DNA of 64,000 nucleotides from a virus. The position numbers and the translations under genes were made by a program. Each line of letters starts with the position of its first letter. Position 1 is the stretch's first letter. The stretch spans positions 1 through 64,000 of the IMG/VR virus record IMGVR_UViG_3300045996_001613; one strand, given 5' to 3'. The notes beneath the pieces are model-generated. The model saw only the letters and a list, made by a program, of their open reading frames with translations, made no database searches and had not been told where the DNA came from. This document shows, in pieces, positions 47,430 through 64,000 of this stretch.

Positions 47430-48428
47430 TTACTGGTTATTAGCGCAGCGCACTATGTTATCGGGCAGTTCGCAGCCCTTGAACGTCTCCCCGTTGAAGT
47501 CATTGTTCACCACGTCTATGTTAGACAGGTTTACGCGATCCGACCGGCCCGAGTCTGACGCAATCCCCGCGAGGTTCTTGGCGTTGTTGTCAAACACGTT
47601 GCCCTGCACCAGCGCGTTCTGAGAGTCGCGTATACTGACGCCTCCGCGGGTAGCCTCGGTCGAGTTGCCATGTATGTAGTTATCCTCGATCAGAGCCCCG
47701 CCGCTGCAGTTCTCATAGCGCACACCGCCGCGTGTGTTGCCTTCTACGTCGACGTTATGAATCCAGAACCCGTTAGGATGGGTGGAACTTGGTGTGCAGC
47801 GCACGTCTCCCCATATGCCGTTGCCCTCATTGTCGTGCGCCCATCCACCGGACACCTCGATCACATTGATCGACTTGATACCCGAGGACGTGAAGCCGAG
47901 GGCCGCGGCGGAACCGTTGTTGTCGAACTCGACGTCAAAGAACTTGCCATTGGCGTTACTTACGCCCATAGCTTCATTGTTCGTGAACCGAGAGTTACGG
48001 ACCACGGTGTTCTGTCCCGCGGAGCCTAGAGCTAATCCTGCACCACTGCCCGCGGACCCATCAAAGTTAGCCCCCTGTACTTGCACCCAATTTTGCGCAT
48101 AGGGACCCTCCTTTGGCTTGATCACCTGATCGACGTTGTTAGTGCCGTTGACGATGCTAGTGATGTTCTCCGGATTGGTGCCGGCGACCGGACGGTTAGA
48201 CACGGTGCCGGGTACCCCCACGAGTTCGTCTCCCTTGCGGGGCGCGATGGTCGCGGAAGTATTGTACGTACAGGACCCGAGCTTGAATGTGGTGCCGATG
48301 TCCTTGGCGTCGTTATTCACCACATTCGCGAGGTTCGACCCGCAGGGCACGTTGACCGTACGCGAAGCGCCCATCGAGAAGACCGCGACCACCGCGATCA
48401 TCAGGGCTATTAGCATTACTTTCCTCAT
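47430..48428 (-). CDS. Secreted right-handed beta-helix protein
   Basis: 332 residues, AAGGGAGGAATGA before ATG 48428. A signal peptide (MRKVMLIALMIAVVAVFSMG) leads to a domain full of pectate-lyase-like turns (NTVVRNSRFTNNEAMGVSNA; IWIHNVDVEGNTRGG pattern; ALIEDNYIHGNSTEATRGGV). Such folds bind or cleave polysaccharides. It is exported by the infected cell, not obviously a tail part: it lies beside tRNAs with its own terminator. May alter the host envelope or exclude other phages. Confidence 0.75.
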   Translation of the reverse strand: MRKVMLIALMIAVVAVFSMGASRTVNVPCGSNLANVVNNDAKDIGTTFKLGSCTYNTSATIAPRKGDELVGVPGTVSNRPVAGTNPENITSIVNGTNNVDQVIKPKEGPYAQNWVQVQGANFDGSAGSGAGLALGSAGQNTVVRNSRFTNNEAMGVSNANGKFFDVEFDNNGSAAALGFTSSGIKSINVIEVSGGWAHDNEGNGIWGDVRCTPSSTHPNGFWIHNVDVEGNTRGGVRYENCSGGALIEDNYIHGNSTEATRGGVSIRDSQNALVQGNVFDNNAKNLAGIASDSGRSDRVNLSNIDVVNNDFNGETFKGCELPDNIVRCANNQ

Positions 48429-52961: not shown

Positions 52962-53648
52962 CTACGCAGCCTTGGGCTCCGTTGAGGAGCAGCCTGTCCA
53001 TCCAGAGAGATAGGAGAGTTCCCGCATGGTGCGATCATGCATGTACACGATGCCGCCGTCCCCGTAGTCCGTTCCCCACGAGTTCTGGAATATCCAGATA
53101 GTGTTTCCGTCATGGAGTACGTAGAATCCTATGCAAAGTATCGCATGTCCTCCAACGAGAGGTCCGGTGGGGTAAATGAAGTTGTACCGATCCGGCTCGT
53201 ACATCCCGTCGAACCAGCGCATCGTCATGACCACTGGCCCCTTGTTCATTCTCATCCAGAGCTTTACGTCGTCGAGTGTTCTTGCCCACACGAATCTCTC
53301 GATGTATCCATAGCCGCGATAGATCTTCGCGCCCGCCTGATTACTGGTCCCCTCTTCTGGGGGCGTGTCGGCAAACTCGTCTATCGCTTGCGCCTCGGGA
53401 TAGAAGCGGAAGGCGTCCTCGTCGGTCAGGAGCGTCGCGGGCACGCGAGGCCCCGCGTTGATCTTGTGCGCCCATGCAAAGAGCACACAGGCCCCCTCCT
53501 GACCCTGATTCAGAGTGGGTCCGGGATCGTAGAATGGTGACGTCTGTATAGTGGCGGTCGCGGGGAACTCCGCGGCCATGAGATAGTTTAGAGCACGCTC
53601 ATCTACAACGTACTTCGCTCCCAATCCTTTACGTCCACGTTTACTCAT
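52962..53648 (-). CDS. Papain-like (C1A) cysteine peptidase
   Basis: 228 residues. Gln48 in LNQGQEGACVLFAWA with Cys54, His168 in GGHAILCIGF and Asn189 in FQNSWGTDYGDGG form the complete papain set with correct spacing. No propeptide or signal peptide is evident. The -10 lies six bases before ATG 53648, so the mRNA is leaderless. May digest a host or virion protein at lysis or act on peptide cross-bridges. Confidence 0.88.
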   Translation of the reverse strand: MSKRGRKGLGAKYVVDERALNYLMAAEFPATATIQTSPFYDPGPTLNQGQEGACVLFAWAHKINAGPRVPATLLTDEDAFRFYPEAQAIDEFADTPPEEGTSNQAGAKIYRGYGYIERFVWARTLDDVKLWMRMNKGPVVMTMRWFDGMYEPDRYNFIYPTGPLVGGHAILCIGFYVLHDGNTIWIFQNSWGTDYGDGGIVYMHDRTMRELSYLSGWTGCSSTEPKAA

Positions 53649-53682: not shown

Positions 53683-54135
53683 CTAAGAGCCGTTCCTTCG
53701 TTCTCTTTGCCTCGCTATGTACATGTACCACCGTCGACGATAGTTTCGTATCCCCAAAAGTATCACGAACAGTAGAATCTGGATCGCGCCCATAAGCATC
53801 TCGGTACTTATGAGTAGAGAAGATATAAATATGGCACGGTCCTCTCCCGACTCGGTAGTGGGAGGGATCATAATCGCGATCAGTCCCGCGGAGGTAATAA
53901 CCAGATCCATAGGAACAAAGACCACGGACATAATGAACAAGCGAAAGGACAGGAATATAGAGCTATCACTTAGTATTTTCTCGGACTCCGTGGGCATGTC
54001 CGCTAATAGTCCAGCCCTCTCAGCAAGGTTTACTTGCCACTCTTCCCATGCTAGCAAGGGGATTATGACAGAAAGTATCAGGAGTAGGAATCCTATGCCT
54101 GTCCATGTATACGCGAGATAATCTGTTGCAGTCAC
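53683..54135 (-). CDS. Membrane protein with three hydrophobic segments
   Basis: 150 residues, GTG start in TAGTG. Helices WTGIGFLLLILSVIIPLLAW, FLSFRLFIMSVVFVPMDLVI (with following SAGLIAIMIPP) and LMGAIQILLFVILLGIRNY; basic C terminus (RRRWYMYIARQRERRNGS). Part of a three-gene membrane cluster between fibres and lysins; holin or antiholin role possible. Confidence 0.65.
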   Translation of the reverse strand: MTATDYLAYTWTGIGFLLLILSVIIPLLAWEEWQVNLAERAGLLADMPTESEKILSDSSIFLSFRLFIMSVVFVPMDLVITSAGLIAIMIPPTTESGEDRAIFISSLLISTEMLMGAIQILLFVILLGIRNYRRRWYMYIARQRERRNGS

Positions 54136-54401
54136 TACGATCCCTTCTTATCTTTAATTGACGCCTCCTTCGCCAAGGCTATTTCCCTTATGCGGAGGAC
54201 GTGCTGCTCAATCCTCTCGGCGCTGGTTTTTACGTTGTTAGTCTCTTTGCGTATTGCTTCTAGGTCTCTCTCGCTTAGATCGCCCTCTACCTCAAAGGTC
54301 TCGAATGCACGGTCTTCTTTGCAGAACAGATACCATACCCCCCCTCCTATAGACATTCCGAAGACCAAAATCGCAATGATTTGAAATATAACTATCGTCA
54401 C
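54135..54401 (-). CDS. Membrane-anchored coiled-coil protein
   Basis: 88 residues. N-terminal helix (IVIFQIIAILVFGMSIGGGV) then an acidic coiled coil (SERDLEAIRKETNNVKTSAE; RIEQHVLRIREIALAKEA). Resembles holin-associated or spanin-like proteins in topology only. Confidence 0.6.
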   Translation of the reverse strand: MTIVIFQIIAILVFGMSIGGGVWYLFCKEDRAFETFEVEGDLSERDLEAIRKETNNVKTSAERIEQHVLRIREIALAKEASIKDKKGS

Positions 54402-54739
54402 TCTGGGCCTCCCTTGCTCAGTCTTCTGACATAAAGATCGGCCAACTCCACTGTAGCCCTCTGTCCCGCTTGGATAGCGGGTATGATCGAGTCACGATAC
54501 TGCGCCACCGTCGTTTCCAAGCTGGAAATGCGACTATTCTGGCTATCTATCGTCTTGTCGCGATCTTCTATGCGCTTGTCCTTCTCTTTATTGAGCAGCC
54601 AGAACAAAGCGGCGATGGCCGACAGTATAGGCAAAACCAGCGTGGTAATCAACCACTGCGGAGGGATTGTAAAGCCTCCGGATGATACTTGGATTAGAAG
54701 TCCCACTTGCGCCCCCTCGGTTATCAGGCAGTCTACCAT
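54398..54739 (-). CDS. Membrane-anchored coiled-coil protein (holin-like)
   Basis: 113 residues. One membrane helix (LITTLVLPILSAIAALFWLL) with a charged coiled coil after it (DKRIEDRDKTIDSQNSRISS). Similar membrane-plus-coil proteins are encoded next to holins in actinophages. Overlaps the next gene by ATGA. Confidence 0.6.
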   Translation of the reverse strand: MVDCLITEGAQVGLLIQVSSGGFTIPPQWLITTLVLPILSAIAALFWLLNKEKDKRIEDRDKTIDSQNSRISSLETTVAQYRDSIIPAIQAGQRATVELADLYVRRLSKGGPE

Positions 54740-54755
54740 TTAATAAAACTTAAAA

Positions 54756-56039
54756 CTACGCCTCGCCGCGAATACCAACCATTCCCACCAGATCGATGCC
54801 TTCCGCGGCAGGAGGAGTGCCTGAGGCGATTGGGGGTAGGGTCAGAGACGTAGTGCTGGTACGCATATTGGTGTTGTGGCCGGTTGCTGTTCCCGCGGTG
54901 ACCGTTTGCCAAATAATCTGTATTAACAGATATTCGTTGGCAAATACGACGTCACTAGCAGGCGTGAGTATTGCCGAGAGGTGAGTGTCCCCGTTCGTCT
55001 GTGCAGCGGGCCACGTTACTTGGTCGCTGACCACGTCGGACCCTATCTGTGTGGGGCTGGACCCGGTTGCGCTTGCACTTCTGAAAAAGCGCACTCTGAT
55101 CGAGTGGGCTCCGGCTGACGCGGCGGTCCCCTTGCCGTGCCATAGGAAGTGCCAAGGCTTACCCGCGGGCAACGTCTTACTCAGTGGACCCACCACGATG
55201 CAGTCTCCACGAGCCGCGTCAGGCAAGGATGAGGGTATCGTAGTTACGAAGGAGGCACGAGGGATGATGAAGTTAGAGTCCATTAGAGCGTATCTGGGAA
55301 CCGGCGTGCTGTTGCCGTAGTTAAATCCGGTCCCTCCTCCCGCCGAGTCTATCGGACTGTCGTCAGACGTCGAATGGTGGTTGTTTACTCCCGACTCTAC
55401 TAATGGGGTAGCCAACCACTTGCGATCTATTGTCTCGGCTTCGGTGTCGGGATGCAGTATGACCGTAAACGCGGACCATGCAGATGAAGTGATGGTTATA
55501 CTGGAGTCTCCACACAGCCCCTCGGAGGCTAGGTTCTCAGAAGCTATCTGGCAGGACCTCACGGCACCATTCTGCTCCTGATGCACCGTGCCCGTCGCGG
55601 GGTCGCCCATAGCGTTAACTGAGTTGCACGCCCATCCCCGTACGAGAAGCGAATTTGCCGCGTAGCTGTACGTGCCGGGTGCTGTGGCCGTTGTGCTGTT
55701 TGCATTTCCCGTTTTGGGCCTAAAGTTTGCAATGGCTCGTGTCACGTGGCAGTTTTGAAAGGCCCCCGCGACCCAATTACCTACAGTGGCAGCGCTAATG
55801 GTAAAGCTCCAACTGGTCTCTCCGGCCCCAGCTTTACCCCACAGTGCGTAAAAGTTGTTGTTGCCGACGTTCTGCGCTCGTACTGAGGCCCATCCCGTCG
55901 GTTGCACTGTGACAAGAGCAGCGCTGTCCAGTATCAGGAAGGCGACAATCCAGTCCCCCTCTTGTGCACCCGGTACGCTGACAGCTTGGGTAGTAGAGGA
56001 GGCGTTAGACCCCTTGTTGGATGTCCGGAGGGACGGCAT
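54756..56039 (-). CDS. Tail fibre / surface adhesion protein with jelly-roll-like repeats
   Basis: 427 residues from ATG 56039 (TAATG with the sulfatase stop). Beta-rich Ala/Ser/Thr-rich sequence (WIVAFLILDSAALVTVQPTG; SWSFTISAATVGNWVAGAFQ), no catalytic motif. Position between the sulfatase and the lysis cluster fits an accessory adsorption protein. Confidence 0.6.
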   Translation of the reverse strand: MPSLRTSNKGSNASSTTQAVSVPGAQEGDWIVAFLILDSAALVTVQPTGWASVRAQNVGNNNFYALWGKAGAGETSWSFTISAATVGNWVAGAFQNCHVTRAIANFRPKTGNANSTTATAPGTYSYAANSLLVRGWACNSVNAMGDPATGTVHQEQNGAVRSCQIASENLASEGLCGDSSITITSSAWSAFTVILHPDTEAETIDRKWLATPLVESGVNNHHSTSDDSPIDSAGGGTGFNYGNSTPVPRYALMDSNFIIPRASFVTTIPSSLPDAARGDCIVVGPLSKTLPAGKPWHFLWHGKGTAASAGAHSIRVRFFRSASATGSSPTQIGSDVVSDQVTWPAAQTNGDTHLSAILTPASDVVFANEYLLIQIIWQTVTAGTATGHNTNMRTSTTSLTLPPIASGTPPAAEGIDLVGMVGIRGEA

Positions 56040-57337
56040 TACGCCTCTGTGACGCGGCAGGTGTTTCCGCGGCATGTAACCATCGAGTTCAGTATGGGCT
56101 GGAGCCAGGACTTAACCTGCTGGCCCTCTGCAGTATTGACAATGTTGGTCAACTCGTAGGGGTCCGCGTCGTCCCCGCCTATATCAAAGATCAGAATGGG
56201 CTCAGTTTTATTGGAGCGCTGAATGTAGGCGTACGCTTCGTTGGTTTGGTAGTCCATTGTACGGAGCATTTTCCAGCCTGATCCCGTAGATTCAATTAAC
56301 ACCTTGGTGCGCCAATCAGTAGGTACAACACCCGAGAAGGTGGGCACTAGGCTGCGCCCGTCCCAATCGGACCACGAGGCCCCTGCGAGGTCTGCAATGG
56401 TCGTAGGTATGTCTATGTGGGAGACTAGGGCAGGGCTCTTGACTCCCGCGGGAATCGTGGGACCCGTCGCGGTAAACGGAATCTTTACGGTTTCGTTCCA
56501 CCACTTATCTTTCTGGTACTGGTCGTGCTCGCCTAGCAGATAGCCGTTGTCGGCAACGTGTATTACGTAGGTGTTCTCCAGTTGTCCATTAGCCGCCAGA
56601 CTGGTGTAGATGCGGTCGATAGCCTCATCCAACTCCTGCACCTCCTCCAGCTTCCCTTCTTGTACCTGCTGCTGGGCCTCCCTCTCCGCGGGGCTCATCC
56701 CCGTCATGTTGGGGGTGATGGCTAAGGGAGTATCATCATGCAGGTGTTCGTACTCGGGCTCCGGCTTGTACGGGCTGTGAGGGCTTAGGTACGAAGCCGT
56801 GATAAAGAAGGGCTCGGGCCGGGTTGACTGCTGATTAAGAAACGACTCCACCCTGCTAGTGATAAGCTCAGAGCTATAGTGAGGCGGCTGGGCGAAGGTC
56901 CTAACTGTGCCAAACTCATTAAAGGTGTGAGACGGCTCGGTGTCGACAATCTTGTTTGCATGCACGAACCATGCACTCTGATCGTAGCCGGGGGGCAGGT
57001 CCAAGGGCATGTTGAAGTAACCGTTTTGGATCTTGCCAAAGTATCCCACTCGATACCCCATCGACTGCAACCGAGTGGCGGGAGTGTCGAGCAGTAGCCC
57101 CTTACTCTTTCCTGCAGAGTATCCGGTGTCCGTGTTGACTGTAACCCGGTGGGTGTGCTGGTGTTTGCCACAGATCATCGTCCATCGCGTCGGTGTGCAC
57201 AGAGGGGTCGAGCAAAACCCGTTATCGTAGTCTATGCCGCCGTCCACCATGTGATGAAACTTCTTGGGCATGACGTCGCGATGGTGGGTGTACTTCTTGG
57301 GATCATCGTCGGAAATCAACAGTACTATGTTGAACAT
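56039..57337 (-). CDS. Sulfatase in the tail-fibre cassette
   Basis: 432 residues, AAAGGTGCAAC before ATG 57337. The N-terminal metal site is LLISDDDPKK (D10-D12); the modification motif is PLCTPTR, i.e. C47-x-P-x-R51, which hosts convert to formylglycine; YVIHVADNGYLLGEHDQYQK is the typical C-terminal metal/active-site block (DNG..GEH). It would remove sulfate esters from a polysaccharide. No signal peptide, and it lies among fibre genes, so it is probably a virion-borne or lysate enzyme. Confidence 0.85.
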   Translation of the reverse strand: MFNIVLLISDDDPKKYTHHRDVMPKKFHHMVDGGIDYDNGFCSTPLCTPTRWTMICGKHQHTHRVTVNTDTGYSAGKSKGLLLDTPATRLQSMGYRVGYFGKIQNGYFNMPLDLPPGYDQSAWFVHANKIVDTEPSHTFNEFGTVRTFAQPPHYSSELITSRVESFLNQQSTRPEPFFITASYLSPHSPYKPEPEYEHLHDDTPLAITPNMTGMSPAEREAQQQVQEGKLEEVQELDEAIDRIYTSLAANGQLENTYVIHVADNGYLLGEHDQYQKDKWWNETVKIPFTATGPTIPAGVKSPALVSHIDIPTTIADLAGASWSDWDGRSLVPTFSGVVPTDWRTKVLIESTGSGWKMLRTMDYQTNEAYAYIQRSNKTEPILIFDIGGDDADPYELTNIVNTAEGQQVKSWLQPILNSMVTCRGNTCRVTEA

Positions 57338-57368
57338 GTTGCACCTTTCTTTGGTATATGTGTTTGGT

Positions 57369-58421
57369 TTAGTAGGTTCCCCTCACCTTCACGGTGAGAT
57401 TGGCACCCGTCGTGCCGGTCCCTACTTGGTCTATGTCACAGGTGATTATCGACCCTACCCCCGGCTGCGTAATGTCCGGCAGGGCAGCGTTCACGCGATA
57501 GTTTCCCGCGGGAGTTATAGCCGGTCGATTGCCCTGCGTAGTGTACAGAGTAGTCTTTGCCCCCGTGCTCAGGTTGACCGAGTTTATATCCACAATCACA
57601 TTTTGAGTGGTCGGCTTGGTATCACAGTAGATAGACACCTCTGTGATAGTGGGCGTACCGCTGTTGGGCAGGTGCTCCCCACCCACTCCGACTTGCGTTG
57701 CGAGGTTGCCTCCATAGAAAAACGTTGCATTCCACTCTCGGGTAGTGGGTGCCCTCGCGTCTGATAGCCTAGAATCGTTTCCTGCCGCGGCCTGCTGCGC
57801 CCCGGTGCCGAGGGTACGGAACGAGGGTATTGCTGCCGCCGCGTCAGAGGGGAGGCGTACCCATCTGCCGACTCCTGCCCCGCCATAGTTCGCGTCCCAC
57901 ACTAGAAGGGCTCGGCTGTTGGGGGAGAACTGCCCTCCGCCAACTACTCGACTGGTAGCCTCGGTTGCGTTCAGGGAAAGGGTGAAGGCAGAACGGTTGA
58001 CCACGTGTATGAATTGACCGTCAAATCCCCCCGCGTCAACTGTTACGCCGGTCCTGTCTGCGGTGGCTGTGACAAGTATTACGCCGTCGGTTCCTACCGC
58101 TATGGCTCCCGAGGCCGCAATGGTCTGCAGGGCTCGTACCGAGGGGCGTACCGGATCTGCGCCTCCCCATCCGTGGCTAGATCCGTGGCTAGTGGGCGTT
58201 CTCGCGTCTGACAGCCTAGAATCGTTCCCCGCCGCGGCCTGTTGAGCACCAGTACCGAGAGTGCGAAGGGAGCCGGTGGCTGCAGCCGCGTCCACGGCCA
58301 TTGCGTCTCCCCCTCCCGGCTGGTGCGACGAAGCGTGGGAAGCGGGTGCTTCGCCAGCCTTACTTAGGTTGACCCCGTTGTGCGTAGGACGATCTGGACC
58401 AAAGAAGTCGTGATCACCCAT
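57369..58421 (-). CDS. Tail fibre protein with duplicated GTGAQQAAAGNDSRLSD unit
   Basis: 350 residues. LGTGAQQAAAGNDSRLSDAR appears twice (near residues 54 and 204), a motif common in phage fibres. Between them lie PVRPSVRALQTIAASGAIAV and a beta domain; the C terminus (GEHLPNSGTPTITEVSIYCD) is a head domain that may bind the receptor. Confidence 0.8.
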   Translation of the reverse strand: MGDHDFFGPDRPTHNGVNLSKAGEAPASHASSHQPGGGDAMAVDAAAATGSLRTLGTGAQQAAAGNDSRLSDARTPTSHGSSHGWGGADPVRPSVRALQTIAASGAIAVGTDGVILVTATADRTGVTVDAGGFDGQFIHVVNRSAFTLSLNATEATSRVVGGGQFSPNSRALLVWDANYGGAGVGRWVRLPSDAAAAIPSFRTLGTGAQQAAAGNDSRLSDARAPTTREWNATFFYGGNLATQVGVGGEHLPNSGTPTITEVSIYCDTKPTTQNVIVDINSVNLSTGAKTTLYTTQGNRPAITPAGNYRVNAALPDITQPGVGSIITCDIDQVGTGTTGANLTVKVRGTY

Positions 58422-59219
58422 TTATCCGCCTAGTATTACAACGCGAAACTGGTCCGTAGTGGGAGCCGTGCCATACATCAGGCGCACTGTGTTCGTGTCC
58501 GGTCGACGGACTCCCGGCTGGGCCGAGGCCCACGGGGTAGAGTTGTAGTACACCTCTACCCCGACATCCCTAGATCCGAAGTTGTGGGTGATGTCTATCT
58601 GGGTCGCGGACCCGTTGCCCACATTTGAGGCAAACTTCTTGGCCCTCGCGTTTATCAGGTTCGTGATGGTGGTGGAGAAGTTGGCATCGTCCCCTAGGGC
58701 CGCGGCTAACTCGTTTAGTGTATCGAGGGTGCCGGGAGACGAATCCACGAGGTTCGATATCGCGGTGTCTACATAGCTTTCCGAGGCCAAGTTCGCGACG
58801 GCTGTAGCAATCTGTCCGAACGCCGCGGCGTCCGTATTTGCCGTGCCGTTTGCGAGGTTGACAATCTTCTGTGAGTTAAGGTCAACACTAGCCGTGGGGT
58901 CAGCCATGTCCGACCATTTCTGCGCTAGTACTGCCGTCGCGAAGTCCGAGATGGTCGCGGCAAGCTGTGATCCCGTATGGTTGGCTCGCGCCAGATAGTA
59001 CGTGCCGTCCTGACCGTCCAAGGTCTCCGCATCCCCGCCGCCTCCCGCGGTGCCAAGTGTTATAACGGTGCTCCCGTCATACACCTTGACCGCGTTGGCC
59101 GAGGAGTCCCACCAGATCGACCCCTCCGTAGGCGTGCCGTGGTTTCCCGCGATAAGCTGGAGAACCAAGTTTAGCGCCTGATGCTTGTTGAACTCTACAT
59201 TATAAAGAAACTCTGTCAT
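58422..59219 (-). CDS. Tail fibre protein
   Basis: 265 residues, one base after the previous gene. Collagen-free fibre repeats (LDGQDGTYYLARANHTGSQL, then ISDFATAVLAQ), ESYVDTAISNLVDSSPGTLD, and a C-terminal domain (DITHNFGSRDVGVEVYYNST) also found in other phage fibres. Confidence 0.8.
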   Translation of the reverse strand: MTEFLYNVEFNKHQALNLVLQLIAGNHGTPTEGSIWWDSSANAVKVYDGSTVITLGTAGGGGDAETLDGQDGTYYLARANHTGSQLAATISDFATAVLAQKWSDMADPTASVDLNSQKIVNLANGTANTDAAAFGQIATAVANLASESYVDTAISNLVDSSPGTLDTLNELAAALGDDANFSTTITNLINARAKKFASNVGNGSATQIDITHNFGSRDVGVEVYYNSTPWASAQPGVRRPDTNTVRLMYGTAPTTDQFRVVILGG

Positions 59220-62504: not shown

Positions 62505-63329
62505 CTAATGTAATATGCCCCATTTTAGCTTACTTGCATACCTTGCACCACCGTCACCACCGCCGCCGGTAATGTCTATAACCGTCTGGTTACTGGAGTT
62601 GTCGTCCCACGCATTTACGCCGGGACCCCTGAAGTCCATGTTGGGACGCTGTGTCAATGGTACGCCCTCGTTTTCTATGATGTGCCCGCCGCTTTGCTGG
62701 ATTGCTTCGACGATAGTTACATCGCCCACGGCACTGTCGGTCAGGTTGAAGTGGTCGTCCCTAAACCTCAACCTCGACCTCTGGCTCATAGAGGTTCCGC
62801 CGTCTTGGATGATGTGGCCTGCGAGCTTCGCTTCCAAGGGGTCGAGCATCGCGTCCGTCTCCGCCTCGGTGTAGTAGCGCGTGTCGTGGTTGTGCGTGGT
62901 GCTCGACTTAGTCGCGAGTAGTGCGTCTATCTCGGCATCGGAGTAGGTCTCGGCCTTGGTGTAGTAGTTGTCCAGAGCAGCGCCGACTTGCTCCCCGCCG
63001 AAGTCCTCGTGGAAGTACAGGACCTCCAACGTCGTGCCTGCAGGGATATTGGTGTTGGTTACCGTACCCGCGGCGTAGTTGATGGTGTAATTAGTCCCCT
63101 TGGTGTATACCAAACCATCCGACTGCCGGCGGACCTTCTCAGAATTCTTCACTAGGGTGGTGAATTCCAAGTCTATTAGTCCCGCGGCAGATGGAGCCGT
63201 CTTAACCTCGCTGTAATACTTCTCGGTCTCAGTCGAGCCCCCGAGCTTGATCATAGTCGAGTTGGCTTCGGGGTCCTGTCTCCGGCTCTTGCCGGTCTTC
63301 ATTCGTGCTAGTGAGTGTGGTACGGGCAC
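62505..63329 (-). CDS. Tail fibre protein with YYTKAET repeats
   Basis: 274 residues. NYYTKAETYSDAEIDALLAT and RYYTEAETDAMLDPL are the classic fibre-shaft repeats; the two GGHII-type units (KLAGHIIQDGGTSMSQRSRL; SGGHIIENEGVPLTQRPNMD) form a second duplicated module. It is the attachment-proximal fibre. Confidence 0.8.
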   Translation of the reverse strand: MPVPHSLARMKTGKSRRQDPEANSTMIKLGGSTETEKYYSEVKTAPSAAGLIDLEFTTLVKNSEKVRRQSDGLVYTKGTNYTINYAAGTVTNTNIPAGTTLEVLYFHEDFGGEQVGAALDNYYTKAETYSDAEIDALLATKSSTTHNHDTRYYTEAETDAMLDPLEAKLAGHIIQDGGTSMSQRSRLRFRDDHFNLTDSAVGDVTIVEAIQQSGGHIIENEGVPLTQRPNMDFRGPGVNAWDDNSSNQTVIDITGGGGDGGARYASKLKWGILH

Positions 63330-64000
63330 TAGACTCCCCCTATCCCCATCGCGCTAATTGTTGGCGGCGACACCGCCACGGCCCTGCCGAGGAAGTAGTC
63401 CGCGTACCCGGAGTCCCGGTTGGCTAGACCCTGCTGGTGCGCCACTGCGCCATCCACGACTCCCTTGAATACACATTCGTGTATGCTGAGGTTTCCGTTA
63501 CTACTAAGGGAGTGGACGGTCTTCATTATCATGAACCTCATGTAGAAGTTTCTCGACGGCTTTGCGACGATTATCTGGTGTCTAAACCTCGCACGCATGT
63601 TTAGGGGCGTGGCTATGGTGACATTAAGCCCGGTCTTCATCATCGCGGCCTGCTGCTTCGCGTGATCTATGCATTGCTGGTCGGTCCACTCCGGGAGTGC
63701 CTGAATACGCAGAATGCTCGTCGGATCTACCGAGAACATTGTATCAACCGGCTCCAGCCACGAAAAGGAGGGGATCGCGACTACGCCACCCCGTACGCTC
63801 TCGGGCCTATAGACCTCGACGCCGAAGTGCACCTCCATCGCGTCGTAGTTGCGGGTAAACTCGATCAGGTCTATGTACTCATTATGCACCCAAAAGATGT
63901 CTAGTGGCTCGGGAGGCACGATCTCAATGTTGTAGTCACCGGGGTCGAAGACCACGTAACCGAGATAATCCGCCAGCCACCAGATCGCATCCCATATCCT
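63329..64000 (-). CDS. Minor tail / baseplate protein, 5' end beyond the window
   Basis: The frame is open to the right edge (upstream residues IWDAIWWLADYLGYVVFDPG), so the true start lies outside. The visible 223 residues include NYDAMEVHFGVEVYRPESVR and RHQIIVAKPSRNFYMRFMIM. Just before the fibre genes, so probably a distal-tail or baseplate protein. The next gene to the right should be the remaining tail genes. Confidence 0.65.
   Translation of the reverse strand, partial: RIWDAIWWLADYLGYVVFDPGDYNIEIVPPEPLDIFWVHNEYIDLIEFTRNYDAMEVHFGVEVYRPESVRGGVVAIPSFSWLEPVDTMFSVDPTSILRIQALPEWTDQQCIDHAKQQAAMMKTGLNVTIATPLNMRARFRHQIIVAKPSRNFYMRFMIMKTVHSLSSNGNLSIHECVFKGVVDGAVAHQQGLANRDSGYADYFLGRAVAVSPPTISAMGIGGV

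Follow-up and report, generated by a model that had tools for sequence, protein, structure and literature searches.

A Predicted Formylglycine-Dependent Sulfatase Encoded in the Tail-to-Lysis Gene Run of a Siphovirus

A stretch of 64,000 nucleotides from a virus (the window: positions 1 to 64,000 of IMG/VR record IMGVR_UViG_3300045996_001613) contains an open reading frame whose sequence, predicted fold, and active-site residues place it in the formylglycine-dependent sulfatase family (S1). This gene is located in a siphovirus tail-to-lysis gene run. With modest confidence, we favor the interpretation that it encodes an active carbohydrate-type sulfatase that would be matured by a formylglycine-generating enzyme (FGE) of the host, would leave the cell in the virion tail or upon lysis, and would desulfate a glycan on the host surface.

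Sequence and Predicted Fold

The reading frame at 56039–57337 (minus strand) is intact and codes for 432 amino acids. The translation matches the Pfam Sulfatase profile PF00884 (E 5.4e-35, 121.6 bits vs a cutoff of 25), with residues 3–320 covering profile positions 2–301 of 301, and residues 269–417 match the Pfam family SGSH_C. Most of the 59 distinct PDB sequences that match at E 0.001 or better are sulfatases. An AlphaFold model built with 26 relatives (pLDDT 88, pTM 0.92) predicts an alkaline-phosphatase/sulfatase fold of the carbohydrate-sulfatase type. Structure comparison indicates that this fold fills residues 1–427 of 432, and the model contains no fused virion-attachment domain. The best structural match is the S1_25 module 6hr5 (Z 45.1, 361 residues at 2.0 Å); others are BT4656 (5g2v, Z 40.7), whose structure was solved with glucosamine-2-N,6-O-disulfate, and BuS1_11 (7lha, Z 38.6). 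These carbohydrate sulfatases share the fold with phage residues 1–427, but sequence identity is just 21–26%, and most of them are longer than the phage protein. By structure comparison of the model, the S1_11/GlcNAc-6-sulfatase type is a close match at 24–26% identity.

Gene Order around the Sulfatase

The IMG/VR record measures 83.6 kb and contains portal, capsid, head protease, and replication genes. A profile search also located a tail-tube gene, and a 3523-residue tape-measure-like reading frame with many degenerate short repeats is found at L006:8153–18724 (minus strand) of the record. Between the tape measure and the fiber genes lie two tandem genes for very large proteins (window 63329–64000 continued by L006:1–3579, and L006:3579–7760, all minus strand). 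These proteins contain RCC1-type repeats (Pfam-tested for one of them), glycine-/proline-rich linkers, and similar C-terminal parts. The following features surround the sulfatase gene, listed in the order of transcription, and further late genes follow.

58422..59219, minus strand: tail-fiber/decoration-like protein, 265 aa (PHROG 2647, 3.7e-37, and many tail fiber families)
57369..58421, minus strand: tail-like protein upstream of the sulfatase, 350 aa (PHROG tail protein matches in a short repeat region, 8.4e-13 and 3.2e-8)
57338..57352, minus strand: Shine-Dalgarno-like stretch AAAGAAAGGTGCAAC, immediately 5' of the sulfatase ATG (sequence)
56039..57337, minus strand: type I (formylglycine-dependent) sulfatase, 432 aa, without signal peptide (Pfam PF00884 and SGSH_C, AlphaFold model, PDB sulfatase matches)
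56037..56041, minus strand: TAATG stop/start overlap of the sulfatase and the next gene, with GAGG before the overlap (sequence)
54756..56075, minus strand: reading frame downstream of the sulfatase, 439 aa as called, or 427 aa if translation begins at the coupled start, tail-like by position only (no Pfam or PHROG match)
53683..54739, minus strand: three small reading frames (150, 88, and 113 aa) with hydrophobic segments, putatively holin-like by position (translations)
52962..53648, minus strand: papain-family (C1) peptidase resembling Gordonia and Streptomyces phage peptidases (Pfam C1, 4.9e-7; PHROG 16701, 6.5e-35)

The first-pass annotation had placed the sulfatase between fiber genes. 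PHROG matches to tail-like and fiber-like proteins bear this out on the 5' side, but the 3' neighbor can be called a fiber by position and composition only; it also has no phage relative detectable by tblastn. The three small reading frames together gave a single Pfam match, which is below cutoff. The sulfatase starts with ATG and has its own ribosome-binding site in the form of a Shine-Dalgarno-like stretch (AAAGAAAGGTGCAACATG). Because its stop codon shares one base with the next ATG, the downstream protein probably starts at 56039 (427 aa) and not at 56075. This junction suggests translational coupling of the two genes. Scans for promoters and terminators gave results no better than chance. 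In this arrangement, the sulfatase would be expressed late, along with the tail and lysis proteins. A 332-residue β-helix protein with a signal-like N-terminus is encoded elsewhere in the window (47430–48428, minus strand), adjoining tRNA genes and distant from the tail genes.

A second IMG/VR virus (L017, IMGVR_UViG_3300045141_000108) encodes a signal-less 429-residue sulfatase three bases after a fiber-like gene, which itself has a weak, sub-cutoff lectin-domain match. The sulfatase is directly 3' of this gene and is followed by an endolysin gene, a design like that seen in the window. This enzyme differs from the one in the window by its core, CQPNR, and by its position on another branch of the family, which points to a separate acquisition.

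The proximity to lysis genes, the endolysin neighbor in L017, and the lack of both a tail-attachment domain and a signal peptide would also fit a soluble enzyme that is not part of the virion. Such a protein would build up in the cytoplasm, escape together with the endolysin when the cell lyses, and strip sulfate from extracellular polymer or debris to help progeny spread. That the gene adjoins the lysis genes on the side facing the tail module, with a tail-like gene before it and the coupled reading frame after it, speaks against this role, but is compatible with both models. We consider soluble release unlikely, yet the most serious of the competing explanations.

Descent from Exported Sulfatases

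In a tree of 37 rows, the window sulfatase forms a long terminal branch that groups with sulfatases from three actinobacterial genomes (support 100/95) and is nested among exported actinobacterial sulfatases (100/95 and 99/98). This group sits inside a wider clade of actinobacterial and cyanobacterial proteins. The nearest relatives are exported actinobacterial sulfatases with approximately 34–38% identity, and all eight carry export-like N-termini (Sec, Tat, or lipobox-like). Three of these same-family enzymes (L107, L108, and L109 from genomes G264, G243, and G296) have an active site conserved as in the phage enzyme, and L107 and L109 also share with it a C-terminal C-x4-CR motif. They differ in having Sec, Tat, or lipobox-like N-termini and residing in bacterial genomes, whereas the phage protein, encoded in a tail-lysis gene run, starts at β-strand 1, only two residues ahead of the strand. 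A test for N-terminal hydrophobicity, which is a heuristic rather than a signal-peptide predictor, was passed by 35 of 41 rows from the wider clade. The six that failed are phage L017; L047 and L054, which are truncated at contig edges; L039, whose start is doubtful; and L021 and L050, in which a signal-like segment is located further upstream than the tested region. On the evidence of this phylogeny, the phage enzyme descends from exported actinobacterial sulfatases. Since it has no signal peptide, it could leave the cell only as part of the virion tail or through lysis.

A protein without signal peptide might also serve inside the cell, where it would hydrolyze a cytoplasmic sulfate ester resembling choline sulfate or a sulfated sugar and so provide the infection with sulfate or carbon. 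The enzyme does show likeness to the choline-sulfatase model, but at 87 bits vs a cutoff of 433. Descent from exported enzymes and placement in a tail/lysis run also disfavor such a metabolic function, which we judge to be improbable.

Active-Site Residues

Residue conservation was assessed in an alignment of 27 sequences (the window sulfatase and 26 others). Two motifs belong to the active site (coordinates computed from the start of the reading frame):

57185..57199, minus strand: catalytic core C47-T-P-T-R51 (C47 and R51 in 27/27 sequences)
56525..56551, minus strand: metal-binding block D263-N264-G-x-x-x-G-E-H271 (D263 in 27/27, N264 in 21/27 sequences)

The first-pass description of a full-length type I sulfatase with C-T-P-T-R and DNG-x-x-x-GEH motifs is confirmed by both motifs, the match to the whole of PF00884, and the model. 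The core fits the family pattern C/S-x-P/A-x-R, in which the nucleophile is Cys or Ser. Residues C47, R51, K102, H187, D263, G265, and K276 are invariant in the alignment. The metal ligands D10, D11, D263, and N264 and the catalytic residues K102, H187, and K276 are all kept in the phage protein. Unusual positions are C56 (mostly Ser, Thr, or Arg in the others), V97 (Thr in 26/26 others), and Q104 (mostly Leu). After K102, the phage enzyme has Q104-N105 where most aligned relatives have Leu-Asn; some sulfatases contain a histidine shortly after the catalytic lysine. The longer PROSITE sulfatase strings (quoted in PMC5066984) do not occur letter for letter in the phage protein, with deviations at C56, V97, F100, I103, and Q104.

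The odd residues C56, V97, and Q104 together with the long terminal branch could mark a catalytically weak or dead sulfatase that is kept as a tail protein for binding sulfated glycans. Given that every residue expected in catalysis and metal binding is retained, we find this quite improbable. Slightly less credible still is another member of this superfamily, whose enzymes are promiscuous: a phosphonate monoester hydrolase (PMH, S1_0) or a phosphodiester hydrolase. The model does match phosphonate monoester hydrolases (Z 36.7), but carbohydrate sulfatases match better (Z 45 to 38). In addition, the metal pair here is D263-N264, as opposed to Asp-His in choline sulfatase, which shares 9 of 11 active-site residues with Rhizobium PMH (PMC5870055); the Asp-His pair is ascribed to PMH only through this agreement.

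Bacterial DNA does occur in public phage records, but an assembly chimera or contamination is hardly believable here, because same-strand phage genes flank the sulfatase on both sides, one junction is a one-base overlap, the GC3 of the gene (0.69) falls inside the range of seven neighboring genes (0.61–0.71), and the independent phage L017 has the same arrangement.

Probable Maturation by the Host

It is established that type I sulfatases require formylglycine (PMC5066984). The record, which is possibly incomplete, contains neither an FGE (PF03781) nor an anaerobic sulfatase maturase, whereas FGE is encoded in all 17 tested genomes of sulfatase relatives. Host FGE is therefore the likely route of maturation, converting C47 to formylglycine in the cytoplasm. 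These observations support the earlier idea that activity would depend on an enzyme from outside the virus.

Phage sulfatases should not be confused with phage proteins containing a so-called FGE-sulfatase domain, which are tail proteins targeted by DGRs (PMC12724379). Despite the similar name and the common association with tail genes, these proteins have the PF03781 fold, not a sulfatase fold, and none is present in the record.

Probable Host and Possible Sulfated Target

The virus is a long-tailed phage, probably of an actinobacterium. Its capsid protein and C1 peptidase resemble actinophage proteins at only about 27–36% identity, and the capsid match ranked first comes from a Stenotrophomonas phage. 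Searches with portal, helicase, capsid, and terminase did not point to a particular host.

Sulfotransferases are widespread. Each of five genomes with close sulfatase relatives contains 4 to 27 sulfotransferase matches. Among 296 actinobacteria, sulfotransferases occur in 14 of 15 genomes with strong sulfatase relatives vs 96 of 281 others (Fisher p 6e-6, in a test that ignores genome relatedness). In genome G200 (L118:222–4393), two sulfotransferase genes adjoin a sulfatase related to the phage enzyme. The sulfotransferase counts in the relatives' genomes suggest that the target of the window sulfatase is sulfated.

Proposed Role in Infection

Descent from secreted sulfatases, loss of the export signal, and placement among tail genes together raise the possibility that the virus desulfates sugars on the host surface. 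The enzyme would hydrolyze sulfate esters on a sulfated glycan at the surface of its host (probably an actinobacterium) and thereby open the way to the receptor or make it recognizable, much as deacetylase tailspikes do with acetyl groups. These tailspikes, the closest analogy (G7C gp63.1, PP99 gp55, and Klebsiella SGNH-domain receptor-binding proteins), strip a glycan decoration without cutting the chain (PMC6989608, PMC13123978). By analogy, the window sulfatase may work like a decoration-removing tail enzyme. The deacetylases, however, have other folds, are built into the tail spike or fiber, and need no formylglycine. Lacking a fused attachment domain, the phage sulfatase does not qualify as a tailspike or depolymerase. 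The first-pass annotation had suggested adsorption through a sulfated capsule or glycolipid. Action on a sulfated surface glycan has circumstantial support from the carbohydrate-sulfatase fold and from relatives in sulfotransferase-rich actinobacteria; the role in adsorption is plausible only.

More tentatively, we propose that such proteins are separate, non-fused tail enzymes that desulfate the host surface glycan at adsorption, are activated by host FGE before assembly, and evolved from exported bacterial sulfatases on more than one occasion, each time losing the signal peptide. We know of no phage that uses desulfation as entry chemistry. If desulfation of the host surface is borne out, phages can target sulfate decorations in addition to acetyl groups and chain bonds. 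A late phage protein would then depend on a post-translational enzyme of the host, and FGE would count among the host factors for infection. There would also be a hint that some actinobacteria carry sulfated surface glycans of importance to phage entry or release.

Sulfatases in Other Viral Records

Our search of the open-access literature found no report of a phage-encoded sulfatase in a tail module. A tblastn search of 50,697 phage records, which has limited reach at 20–25% identity, returned 14 matches at E 1e-5 and 33 at E 1. Four matching records were examined and rejected as relatives, because their DNA is bacterial: one is a chromosomal segment resembling E. coli, one a polysaccharide locus of the Bacteroides type, one an SMC/FtsY region, and one a transporter operon. 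The other matching records are apparently mostly unannotated fecal scaffolds or bacterial contigs. Two Klebsiella prophage records contain a gene annotated as "phosphatase" that matches weakly, over 26% of the query (E 2e-3). Record L002 (MG065691.1, "Campylobacter phage A11a"), flagged UNVERIFIED, contains bacterial chromosomal genes for acetolactate synthase, a PTS transporter, and a sulfatase, and seems to be contaminated. Peptide patterns from the window sulfatase, its C1 peptidase, and a distal tail protein revealed no close relatives in IMG/VR, and a viral structure library returned only giant-virus proteins at E 0.001 or better. The search for related phages proposed at the outset thus yielded L017 from IMG/VR, with its like arrangement, but no confirmed relative among the 50,697 phage records.

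The IMG/VR viral sulfatases L013, L015, L016, and L017 occupy separate positions in the trees, which require at least three origins. Among the other viral sulfatases found, only L017 resembles the window enzyme in both gene placement and missing signal; the N-termini of L013 and L016 are of the export type. The L013 sulfatase (L013:7926–9197, plus strand) has a Tat-like N-terminus and is encoded on the opposite strand between portal and tail-fiber-like genes, on a contig with portal/capsid-type genes. On the viral contig L015 (IMGVR_UViG_3300008262_000188, L015:7986–10584), a Cys-type sulfatase gene is convergent with a gene for a radical-SAM anaerobic sulfatase maturase (TIGR03942, 470 bits vs a cutoff of 349). 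As read from these genes, this virus may carry its own sulfatase activator.
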